Below, in pieces: positions 58,686-64,000 of a stretch of 64,000 bases of DNA. The notes beneath the pieces were generated by a model. That model had not been told where the DNA came from. It ran no database searches and saw nothing but the letters and a program-made list of their open reading frames with translations. The position numbers and the translations under genes were made by a program. Each line of letters opens with the position of its first letter. Position 1 is the first letter of the stretch. This DNA is from an uncultured Actinomycetes bacterium (lineage in GTDB: Bacteria > Actinomycetota > Actinomycetes > Mycobacteriales > Mycobacteriaceae). The DNA is taken from assembly GCA_903877095.1 (NCBI GenBank), contig CAIRCP010000101.1, positions 38,412-102,411 of the forward strand, read 5' to 3'.

Positions 58686-61391
58686 TCAATGCCGCGCCAA
58701 CTCCGCGCGGACTCCGGCCAGCGCCGCGGTGATGCCGGCGGGATCCTTGCCGGAACCCTGGGCGAGGTCGGCCTTCCCGCCGCCGCGCCCACCGACCGCG
58801 GCCGCGACCGGCGCCACCAGGTCGCTGGCGCGCAGGCCGGCATCCTGGGCGGCCTGGTTGATGGCCACGATGAACGGAACGGCCCCCTCGCTCTCGGAGA
58901 TCAGCACCACCACCCCGGGATCGGGGCCGAGCGAGGCGCGGATGTCGCCGACCAGCGAGCGCAGATCCGAGGCGGTCATGCCGGCAGCCATCCGCTGCGC
59001 CACGAGGCGCACCTTGCCGACCTGCTCGGCGGAGGTGGCGGCGTTCGAGGCCGCCGCGCGGGCACCCGCCAGGCGCATCCGGTCCAATTCCTTCTCGGCG
59101 GCCCGGAGCCGGTCGACCAGGGTCGCCACCCGGGCGGGAACCTCGTCGGACGGGACCTTCAGCGACGTCGCCAGACCGGCCATCAGCGCGCGCTCCTTGG
59201 CCAGGTGGCGGAACGAGTCCAGCCCGACGTAGGCCTCGACGCGACGCACCCCGGAGCCCACTGAGGACTCGCTGAGGAGGGTGATCGGTCCGATCTGAGC
59301 GGAGTTGTGGACGTGGGTGCCGCCGCACAGTTCCAGCGAGAATGGTCCGCCGATCTCCACCACCCGCACCCGGTCGGGGTACTGCTCGCCGAACATGGCC
59401 ATCGCACCCATCGATTTGGCCTTGTCCAGTTCGGTGACGAAGGTGTTGACCGGGAAGTCGGACTGCACCGCCTCGTTGGCGACTTCCTCGACCTGGTTGC
59501 GCTGGTCCTCGGTCAGCGCACTTTGGGAGTTGAAGTCGAAGCGCAGATAACCGGGCCGGTTCAGCGAGCCGGCCTGAACGGCGTTGGGCCCCACCACTTG
59601 TCGCAGCGCGGCATGCACCATGTGGGTGCCCGAGTGGCCCTGGGTGGCGCCGCGGCGCCAGCCCGGATCGACCGACGCGACGATGGTGTCGCCTTCGACG
59701 AACTCGCCGGATTCGACGTTGATCCGGTGCACCCACAGAGTCTTGCCGATCTTCTGCACGTCACTGACCGCGGCTTTGGCCGATTCACCCGAACCGGTGC
59801 CGGTGATCCAGCCGATATCGGCGATCTGGCCGCCGGACTCGGCGTAGAGCGGGGTGCGATCCAGCACGATCTCGACGCGTTCGGGTGGCATGGTCTCGGA
59901 GTGCACCCGGCCGTGGTGGGCCACCACCGGCACCCGTTTACCGTCGACGAAGATGCCGAGAATCCTTGCCTGCGAGGCGAGTTCGTCGAATCCGGTGAAC
60001 TCGGTCGGGCCGGCGTCGACGAGTTCACGGAACGCCGACAGGTCGGCGTGGGCATGCTTGCGGGCTGCCGCATCGGCTTTGGCACGCCGGCGCTGCTCGG
60101 CCATCAGTTCGCGGAAGCCCAGTTCGTCCACCGTCAGACCCGCTTCAGCGGCCATCTCCAGCGTCAACTCGATGGGGAATCCGTAGGTGTCGTGCAGCGC
60201 GAACGCGTCGGACCCGCCCAGTTGGGACTTGCCCGCCCACCGGGTGGTGGCAGCGGCCTCCTCGAACAGCTTGGAGCCCGATGCCAGAGTGCGGTTGAAC
60301 GCGGTCTCCTCGGCCACGGCGATCCGGTGGATCCGGTCGAAGTCGGCAACCAGTTCGGGATAGGACGGGCCCATCGCGTCGCGGACGGTCTCCATCAGTT
60401 CACCGACGATCGGCTGGTCGATGCCGAGCAGTTTGGCCGAGCGGATGATTCTTCGCAGCAACCGGCGCAGCACGTAGCCCCGGCCCTCGTTGGACGGTGT
60501 GACGCCGTCGCCGATGATGATCGCCGCGGTGCGGCTGTGGTCGGCGATCACCCGGTAGCGGACGTCGTCCTCGTGGCTGCCCTGGCCGTAGCCACGCGGT
60601 GCTCGGCGGCTCACAGCGTCGATGACCGGCCTCAGCAGGTCGGTCTCGTAAACGTTGTCCACGTCCTGCAGCAGGCAGGCGATCCGCTCCACGCCCATGC
60701 CGGTGTCGATGTTCTGGCGCGGCAGCGGGCCGAGGATCTCGAAGTCGTTCTTGCTGGTGCCGTCGCCGCGCTCGTTCTGCATGAAGACGAGGTTCCAGAT
60801 TTCGATGTAGCGGTCCTCGTTGGCCTCCGGGCCGCCCTCGATGCCGTATTCGGGGCCCCGGTCGTAGTAGATCTCCGAGCACGGTCCGCACGGCCCGGGG
60901 ATTCCCATCGACCAGTAGTTGTCGGCCATCCCGCGGCGCTGGATCCGCTCGGACGGCAAACCGGCGACCTCCTGCCACAGCCCGACGGCCTCGTCGTCGT
61001 CGTAATAGACGGTGGCCCAGAGTCTTTCGGGGTCGAAGCCGTAACCGCCCTCGGCGACCGGGTTGGTCAGCAGGGTCCAGGCCAGTTCGATGGCGCGGCG
61101 CTTGAAGTAGTCGCCGAACGAGAAGTTGCCCGCCATCTGGAAGAAGGTGTTGTGGCGGGTGGTGATGCCGACCTCGTCGATGTCCGGGGTGCGGATGCAT
61201 TTCTGAATGCTGGTGGCCGTGGCGTACGGCGGGGTGCGCTGACCCAGGAAATACGGCACGAATTGGACCATGCCCGCGTTGACGAACAGCAGGTTCGGAT
61301 CGTCGAGAATCACCGAGGCGCTGGGCACCTCGGTGTGACCGGCATTGACGAAGTGGTCGGTGAACCGCTTCCTGATCTCGTGGGTCTGCAC
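58686..61391 (-). CDS. alaS: Alanyl-tRNA synthetase
   Basis: [97 protein letters not shown]; start inferred inside ORF 58686..61466. Confidence 0.98.
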
Positions 61392-61576
61392 GGCAGTGGG
61401 CTGTCCTTGAATTCCTGATGCTGCGGGGCTGCTCGGCGTTGTCCGCCTGAGCTTCGACCGCATCACCCTACCGGTTCGGGTCCGGCCGCATCCGGCCAGC
61501 GAGGCGGGGATAACCGGCGAAGCCTTACTTTGCAGTCGACCTGGCCGCGCGCCGCCCTGGCGTCAGGCCGCCCTGC

Positions 61577-62917
61577 CTAAGAGCGACGACGCCGGATGAT
61601 CGCGCGCAGCTTGTCCAGCCGGGAAGCAATCTCCCGTTCGGTGCCGTGCCTGGTCGGCCGGTAGTAGTCGACACCGGCCAAGCCATCCGGCGGATATTGT
61701 TGCGGCACAACGCCATCCGGGTCGTCGTGCGGGTAACGGTAGCCCTGCGCGTGGCCCAGTTTGGCCGCGCCCGAGTAGTGACCGTCGCGGAGCGGCGCGG
61801 GCACCGGCCCGGCTTTGCCCGCCCGGATATCGGCCATGGCGGCCGACAGCGCGGTGGTGACCGCGTTGGATTTGGGGGCGGTGGCCAGGTGGACCGTGGC
61901 GTGGGCCAGGGTGAGCTGGGCTTCGGGCATACCGATCAGCGCCACGGTCTGGGCGGCCGCGACCGCGACGGGCAGAGCGGTCGGATCGGCCATGCCGATG
62001 TCCTCGCTGGCCAGGATCATCAACCGACGCGCGACGAAACGGGGGTCCTCCCCCGCGACCAGCATCCGGGCCAGGTAGTGCAGCGCGGCGTCGACATCGG
62101 AACCCCGCACCGATTTGATGAACGCGCTGACGACGTCGTAGTGCTGGTCGCCGTCGCGGTCGTAACGCACGGCCGCCCGGTCCAGCGACTGCTCGACGGT
62201 CTCGACGGTGATGGGGCCACCGGCCGCCCGGGCGGTTTCGGCTGCGACTTCGCACGCGGTCAGCGCGCGGCGGGCATCCCCGGCGGACAGCTGAACCAGC
62301 AGATCCAGGGCCTGTTCATCGACGTCGACGGCCCCGCCGAGCCCGCGCGGATCGGCGAGGGCGCGCCGCAACAGGGTGCGGACGTCCTCGGGCTCCAGAG
62401 GATGCAGTTGCAAAATCAGCGACCGCGACAACAACGGCGCCACTACCGAGAACGACGGATTCTCGGTGGTGGCGGCCACCAGTAGCACCACCCGGTTCTC
62501 CACGGCGGCCAGCAGAGCGTCCTGCTGGGTCTTGGAGAACCGGTGCACCTCGTCGATGAAGAGAACCGTCTGGTTGCCGTAGGCCGCGGCCCGCCGGGCC
62601 TCGTCGATGACCGCGCGGACCTCCTTGACCCCGGCGGACAGCGCGGACAACGCCTCGAAGCGCCGCCCGGTCGCCCCCGAGATCAGCGAGGCCAGCGTGG
62701 TCTTGCCGGTGCCCGGCGGGCCGTAAAGGATGACCGATGCCGCTCCGGACCCTTCGACCAGCCGGCGCAGCGGTGAGGCCGGGCCGAGAAGGTGCTGCTG
62801 GCCGATGACCTCGTCGAGAGTCGCCGGGCGCATCCGAACCGCCAGCGGTGCGGACGTCGGCGCCGGCGGGCCGGCGGAACCCTTGTCGGCGGGCACGTCG
62901 AACAGGCTGTCGGACAC
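61577..62917 (-). CDS. rarA: Replication-associated recombination protein A (RarA/MgsA AAA ATPase)
   Basis: [84 protein letters not shown]. Confidence 0.94.
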
Positions 62918-63288: not shown

Positions 63289-63318
63289 TTGCGAGGCAAA
63301 CAAACGAGTGACTACTTT
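63289..63318 (+). promoter_or_regulatory. Putative sigma-70-type promoter for the repeat-protein gene
   Basis: TTGCGA (63289-63294), 18-bp spacer, TACTTT (63313-63318) in a locally A/T-rich patch. Confidence 0.4.
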
Positions 63319-63491
63319 TAGGCTCCTAACCGGAACAAAGACGACCTGGCTGCCTCGCGTGGTTCCTGAATCGGTTTGTGCAGTGGCACTGCACGCGCAG
63401 ATTCAGCAACTTTGAAAGGCGCTCTGCCGCTCGTGTGCCTGATGAGGGCACGTCGCGCTGCCAGCCGGGCCGCGCGAAAAGGGAGAACCCT

Positions 63492-64000
63492 GTGGCAGAC
63501 AAGAATCCCAACGACCCCCTCAACGTCGTGGACAATTACGTCGATCGGACGTACACCATCCAGCGGCTGGTGGAGCGGCCGGTGGAGAAGGTGGTAGACC
63601 GGCCGGTCACCCTTGAGCGGGTCATCGAGCGGCTGATCGTCGATACCGTCGACACGATCGTGGACAAGCCGGCCACGGTGTCGCGCATCGTTGAGCGCCC
63701 GGTGGTGACTGTCGTCGACGAGGTCGTCGATCGCCCGGTGAAGGTGAGCCGCCAGCTGGAGCGCCCGATCGTCACCGTCGTCGACGAGGTCGTCGATCGC
63801 CCGGTGAAGGTGAGCCGTCAGCTTGAGCGCCCGATCGTCACCGTCGAGGACCGCGTCGTCGACAAGCCGGTCAAGGTCGTCCGCCAGCTGGAGCGCCCGG
63901 TCGTCACCGTCGAGGACCGCGTCGTCGACAACCCCGTCAAGGTGAGCCGTCTGCTGGAGCGCCCCGTCGTCACCGTCGAGGACCGCGTCGTCGACAAGCC
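63492..64000 (+). CDS. Tandem-repeat protein with 22-aa Val/Pro/Glu/Arg-rich units (partial, runs off the right edge)
   Basis: GTG start after RBS-like aaaagggag; VADKNPNDPLNVVDNYVDRTYTIQRLVERPVEKVVDRPVTLERVIERLIVDTVDTIVDKPATVSRIVERPVVTVVDEVVDRPVKVSRQLERPIVTVVDEVVDRPVKVSRQLERPIVTVEDRVVDKPVKVVRQLERPVVTVEDRVVDNPVKVSRLLERPVVTVEDRVVDK; open to the window edge (so absent from the ORF track). Confidence 0.85.
   Translation, partial: MADKNPNDPLNVVDNYVDRTYTIQRLVERPVEKVVDRPVTLERVIERLIVDTVDTIVDKPATVSRIVERPVVTVVDEVVDRPVKVSRQLERPIVTVVDEVVDRPVKVSRQLERPIVTVEDRVVDKPVKVVRQLERPVVTVEDRVVDNPVKVSRLLERPVVTVEDRVVDK
63627..64000 (+). repeat. 66-bp tandem coding repeat array
   Basis: GAGCG(C/G)... unit starts at 63627, 63693, 63759, 63825, 63891 and 63957, exact 66-bp spacing; a preceding 54-bp degenerate unit starts at 63573. 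Confidence 0.95.

Follow-up and report, generated by a model that had tools for sequence, protein, structure and literature searches.

The Repeat Gene at the Window End

The DNA analysed here (the window, 64,000 nucleotides) forms the right-hand end of contig C101 (102,411 bases) in a genome of 4.47 Mb assembled into 248 contigs. Its last gene encodes a tandem-repeat protein (Table 1), and the repeat frame is still open at the window edge, where the contig itself terminates at base 102,411. In the relatives L032, L035 and L040, the start codon is preceded by CGAAAGGGA.

Table 1. Coordinates of the repeat gene and of its syntenic anchors in the window.
Feature	Position	Strand	Remarks
alaS	58686..61466	-	Syntenic anchor; used for the tree
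MgsA/RarA-like AAA ATPase gene	61577..62917	-	Divergent syntenic anchor, also beside the gene in L033, L034, L038 and L099; name by sequence recognition
Shine-Dalgarno-like AAAGGGAG	63477..63484	+	7 nt ahead of the GTG start; read from the sequence
Epiplastin-like repeat protein, N-terminal 169 aa	63492..64000	+	GTG start; the contig ends within the coding sequence
Short head MADKNPNDPLNVVDNYVDRT ahead of the repeats	63492..63551	+	Kept in all relatives
First repeats YTIQRLVERPVEKVVDRPVTLERVIERLIVDTVDTIVDKPATVSRIV, unit-like and position-specific	63552..63692	+	Columns (nearly) invariant in Mycobacterium and Nocardia
Near-perfect 66-bp/22-aa units	63693..64000	+	Unit starts 63693, 63759, 63825, 63891, 63957

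An earlier note, made from the window sequence, had described a strict 66-bp/22-aa repeat with five unit starts behind an N-terminus lacking a signal peptide. Both observations were borne out: the spacing is exactly 66 bp, self-match of the protein at a lag of 22 was 0.64 compared with a maximum of 0.23 in 200 shuffles over all lags from 5 to 44, and neither a signal peptide nor a membrane span was found. The units on the side of the contig edge are near-identical, as had also been noticed, with 88–95% identity at the DNA level; units 1 and 2 share 91% with each other. The proposed division of each unit into two similar 11-aa halves had to be abandoned, as prolines are spaced by 12 and then 10 residues within the unit, both in the window protein and in all full-length relatives.

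An antisense frame of 226 codons (window 63318–63998, minus strand) lies open opposite the repeats. Most relatives have stops in this frame, which marks it as a side effect of high GC content.

Full-Length Relatives and Selection

Contig C4 opens with a C-terminal part of 258 aa (bases 2–778, L002/L029, same strand), which ends in ...GEHPDDDIVGDES...PRHRRS. Because the genes that follow it match the synteny of the relatives, we infer that the C101 and C4 frames are two halves of one gene. They occupy positions 2–169 and 434–660 of the relatives' profile, and about 265 aa are probably missing between them. The assembly also breaks within the repeat gene in other metagenome-derived genomes.

Intact proteins have 656 aa (L031), 699 aa (L038) and 749 aa (L039, Nocardia), and 656–971 aa overall; those of a second genus, g4, reach ~840–970 aa and come from closed or near-closed genomes. 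In each, a short head precedes two arrays of 22-aa units that enclose a conserved, non-identical middle (...EKPVEKIVEKIIEIPVEKIVYKTVEKPVE...), and a conserved tail of 70–80 aa follows. Head, middle and tail stay in place, and lengths differ by whole units, with alignment gaps of 22, 44 or 66 residues. The earlier note proposed extending the contig; the complete protein is instead supplied by the relatives, and no membrane span was found in the repeat protein.

Over the first 85 codons, compared with seven relatives, most nucleotide changes fall at third codon positions, with dN 0.12–0.17 and dS 0.6–1.2. The resulting dN/dS of ~0.11–0.26, or roughly 0.1–0.3, shows that the protein is under purifying selection.

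Distribution

Searching 85,462 species genomes with a profile of the head yielded 11 loci. Record titles of the carriers point to assemblies from lakes or an inland sea (Superior bloom, Erken, Pavin, Loclat, Kiruna, Caspian; places partly inferred), and the one named isolate is Nocardia alni. In the genus of the window, the head matched in 10 of 397 genomes, to which G288, with a contig break within the gene, adds one. In the AlaS tree, carriers fell, together with two non-carriers, into one group of 13 rows with 100/100 support; this topology fits one gain followed by losses or missing sequence. One assembly with the same repeat gene (L035, CAMCWJ010000080.1) is titled Bifidobacterium breve, while its AlaS lies within the lake Mycobacterium clade; it looks mislabelled.

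In g4, the repeat gene is present in 16 of 59 genomes. This genus is probably Gordonia: of the 39 phage records that match a prophage-like stretch in one of its genomes, 37 belong to Gordonia phages. A prophage-like region of G466 (L121, G466:C1:3450000-3462000), matching Gordonia phages, gave a weak repeat-profile match at 3456834–3457493, opposite a 554-aa frame, which was taken as spurious.

Nothing further credible was found in 247 genomes of the phylum, where a weak match in G1039 was rejected as an unrelated gene. Matches in g93 and g95 (E 1e-4 to 1e-3) were set aside; the one inspected, in G698, is a helix-like LLERDG protein. These searches used samples and short patterns and may have missed relatives that are rarer or more distant. 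A phage or plasmid origin was rejected, as the repeat gene had no match in phage collections, plasmid collections or viral contigs; weak PHROG tape-measure matches were considered spurious.

A Putative Wall-Binding Membrane Partner

The gene directly downstream, co-oriented with the repeat gene, encodes a partner protein of 390–540 aa. This protein comprises an N-terminal hydrophobic segment (a signal peptide, judging by hydropathy), two LGFP repeats (PF08310, scoring 83–100 bits where 22 is the cut-off), a single membrane span, Arg residues and a Pro-rich tail with the C-terminal end V-x-Y-E-N-N-A-L/V-G. According to the positive-inside rule, the Arg-rich side of a membrane span is cytosolic; the tail, which lies beyond such an Arg-rich stop after the span, is therefore predicted to be cytosolic. 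The earlier opinion that flanking genes do not explain the repeats holds upstream only, whereas the LGFP transmembrane gene downstream, beyond the window, is informative.

The pair was found in ten Mycobacterium genomes (L029, which is that of the window, L031, L033, L034, L038, G112, G128, G140, G288 and G347), and in G107 the contig ends within the partner gene. Four g4 genomes have it, with a one-base overlap in G819 and G466 and simple adjacency in G1067 and G521, and in Nocardia alni the partner begins 13–16 bp past the repeat gene. The pairing is not obligatory, since 12 of the 16 g4 carriers had no adjacent partner, nor was a full-length partner found in their genomes. All strong matches to the partner tail (E below 1e-14) in the 397 genomes of the window's genus were in carriers or at contig ends. 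Among 43 g4 non-carriers, partner matches were no better than ~1e-18, and the best ones cover the LGFP domain only.

The chromosomal settings differ among the three genera. Going by sequence recognition, we take them to be rarA/alaS in Mycobacterium, copper-resistance-like and yceI-like genes in g4, and pdxS-like and thioesterase-like genes in Nocardia. The partner keeps its architecture and tail motif throughout, and the adjacency of the same two genes in three unlike settings is the best evidence that they may be functionally linked.

The best solved relative of the LGFP domain is PS1 (PDB 6swz, 6sx4), whose LGFP region was matched by the outer domain of the partner with an E-value of 2e-34. 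Unlike LGFP wall proteins such as PS1, the partner spans the membrane and carries a long cytosolic tail that is conserved, and the common mycobacterial double-LGFP proteins of 660–920 aa showed no match to this tail beyond its membrane-span region. LGFP domains have been proposed as wall anchors, according to the account in PMC3314691.

The Mycobacterium cassette usually includes a third gene, for a small Gly-rich, Gly-zipper-like protein of 85–89 aa (e.g., MEWLLGALGG...; L029:2320-2586, L034:10570-10839, L038:13488-13748, L093, L094, L097, L098, L100), which had no match in Pfam, NCBIfam or PHROG. At L095:2349-4118 and G128:C274:1135-1461, a second gene located elsewhere in the genome has both the membrane segment and the YENNALG...DKSDSVPD tail in common with the partner and perhaps encodes a second tether. 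In the g4 genome G1109, many LGFP-gene copies with identical scores occur on contigs C7, C10, C12, C13, C24, C25, C33 and C38, and the gene looks multicopy or mobile.

Comparison with Epiplastins, Alveolins and Articulins

As described by Goodenough et al. (PMC6212826), the defining feature of epiplastins is a medial domain in which V/I and charged residues abound, with almost no G or A and with acid–base dyads; the means given are V+I 33 ± 7, charged 35 ± 6, G 0.4 ± 0.7 and A 1 ± 1. The repeat domain agrees with this definition in composition (V+I 35–40%, charged 38–43%, G 0–0.2%, A 0–1.2%) and in dyads, which are about twice as numerous as expected by chance. It is also flanked, as in epiplastins, by an ordinary head and tail, both conserved, although the head of ~20 aa is very short.

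The Pfam IMCp model (PF12314, curated cut-off 21.1 bits) scored above its cut-off in seven proteins, with 28.0, 25.8, 23.4, 49.1, 28.7, 26.2 and 30.9 bits (the C-terminal half from the window genome, at 28.0, and L031, L038, L039, L113, L114 and L117). The g4 relative L115 remained below it at 14.8 bits, and the N-terminal part in the window by itself gave no match. When two segments were reversed or shuffled, the model no longer recognized them, so the match depends on residue order. However, the unrelated families DUF445 and MIP-T3 also exceeded their cut-offs, and one reversed copy exceeded that of another family; a Pfam match here is therefore not proof of descent, and the IMCp score may reflect convergent low-complexity similarity. 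Matches to DUF445, MIP-T3 and DnaG_DnaB_bind were rejected as low-complexity artefacts. Across 299 genomes of the order, the IMCp model gave no match, an uninformative negative as it includes the window genome itself. Caulobacter vibrioides was the only control genome with an IMCp match.

Alveolin and articulin repeats have a period of 12, as given in PMC4303705, whereas the period here is 22, built from the 12 + 10 proline spacing. The articulin hallmark of more than three VPV modules was absent overall, with 0–1 modules in Mycobacterium and 2 in Nocardia; two g4 proteins contain 4 and 5. Because of the 22-residue period, because the Pfam match does not prove descent, and because PMC6212826 reserves the full name epiplastin for organisms that assemble an epiplast, we class the protein as epiplastin-like, neither alveolin nor articulin. 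The articulin/alveolin resemblance suggested in the earlier note fares better than that note had claimed, given the epiplastin-like composition and the above-threshold IMCp scores in most full-length relatives; the VPV triplet is absent from the window protein.

The protein thus shares with protist epiplastins (alveolins/IMC proteins, articulins, plateins) a dyad domain rich in V/I and charge and poor in A/G between head and tail, as well as the IMCp score and, in its models, low-confidence strands and no helix. It differs in being bacterial, in its strict 22-aa unit (12 + 10), in its wall-binding membrane partner and in the absence or rarity of VPV in Mycobacterium. Proteins termed epiplastin-like were reported earlier in Caulobacter, with convergence or gene transfer suggested (PMC6212826). 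These articulin-like proteins are likewise bacterial, belong to the same composition class and have no assigned function in the descriptions of PMC6212826 and PMC4303705; as described there, they are rich in VPV and VYV, and a wall-binding partner is not mentioned.

Structure Prediction

AlphaFold models of the 656-aa protein (8 rows) and of the 169-aa part (10 rows) reached pLDDT values of 30 and 32, with no confident fold. Strands and no helix were assigned, which at a pLDDT of ~30 only suggests a beta fold. The elongated beta-rich scaffold proposed earlier, for which such modelling had been recommended, stands better than claimed, although its fold is not confidently predicted. A sequence search of the PDB gave weak OspA matches (E 3e-4), attributed to composition.

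A role as a scaffold at the cell cortex has been proposed for crescentin/bactofilin-type cytoskeletons, as we propose here, and Pfam scans of the repeat proteins gave no match to these families. Crescentin is predicted to be helical, according to PMC6212826, while the repeat protein is Pro-rich with no helix predicted.

Proposed Role and Alternative Explanations

We consider it about an even bet (probability roughly 0.5) that the gene encodes a cytosolic, beta-strand-prone, epiplastin-like structural protein of 650–1000 aa that self-assembles and, in many carriers, is tethered to the wall via the partner. The repeat protein would reside in the cytosol, where strands of alternating Val and charged residues could stack side by side into fibres or a sheet beneath the plasma membrane. 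The cytosolic tail of the partner, Pro-rich and closing with its conserved motif, would bind this scaffold, while the LGFP domain would grip the cell wall outside, so that skeleton, membrane and wall would be mechanically coupled. The gene pair suggests, but does not prove, such a wall-linked bacterial skeleton. Tentatively, some mycolic-acid bacteria may line the plasma membrane from within with an epiplast-like beta skeleton that a dedicated transmembrane LGFP protein bolts to the wall.

A somewhat unlikely alternative is that the protein is a cytosolic low-complexity scaffold with another job, such as the organization of granules, enzyme clusters or polar material, and that the LGFP gene is only loosely related to it in function. 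The g4 carriers without an adjacent partner (12 of 16) and the missing signal peptide agree with this, and a membrane skeleton does not follow from composition alone; however, the same partner with a common cytosolic tail motif lies next to the gene at three loci in three genera, whose settings share no granule or enzyme gene. Mycobacteria export some proteins without signal peptides, and together with the anchoring role proposed for LGFP domains this would allow a surface or matrix repeat protein, exported non-classically and held by the partner from outside. We regard this as improbable, because the repeat protein has neither a signal peptide nor a membrane span, no export motif is conserved among its tails (by inspection), and the conserved non-LGFP part of the partner is on the Arg-rich, cytosolic side of its span. 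It is very unlikely that a near-functionless low-complexity frame is kept by repeat expansion and resembles alveolins by chance. Near-identical units and whole-unit indels do show active expansion, and in high-GC repeats both strands retain long open frames, but the dN/dS of ~0.1–0.3, the head, middle and tail conserved between Mycobacterium and Nocardia, the full-length gene in closed g4 genomes and the stops in the antisense frame of most relatives speak against it.

The tethered cytosolic scaffold that we favour is compatible with a different origin, in which the protein is a true alveolin/articulin homologue acquired from protists by gene transfer rather than by convergence. The order-dependent IMCp score and, going by record titles, a lake habitat that protists also occupy are in keeping with a transfer. 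We nevertheless hold it to be unlikely, given the period of 22 (12 + 10) instead of the 12 described for alveolins (PMC4303705) and the near absence of VPV in Mycobacterium; low-complexity similarity does not separate homology from convergence, and such sequence allows no reliable tree.

In 5.39 million open-access papers, searches for alveolin, articulin or epiplastin in Mycobacterium, Actinobacteria or Gordonia returned no report, subscription literature being mostly outside their reach, and the wall-tether pairing was likewise not found in mainly open literature. The impression of an undescribed protein in the earlier note must be narrowed accordingly: the bacterial epiplastin-like class is already known, from Caulobacter only and without function, in the descriptions of PMC6212826 and PMC4303705, while the actinobacterial branch with its transmembrane wall-binding partner appears new. 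Alveolin-type membrane skeletons are regarded as a protist invention, with Caulobacter as the sole unexplained outlier. If the proposal is true, it would reveal a bacterial counterpart of a wall-attached membrane skeleton, something that has not been described for bacteria. A further bacterial group in which a conserved membrane partner is able to reach the wall would offer a testable idea of the role of such proteins in walled cells, and the choice between convergence and gene transfer would become approachable in culturable hosts (Nocardia alni, Gordonia).
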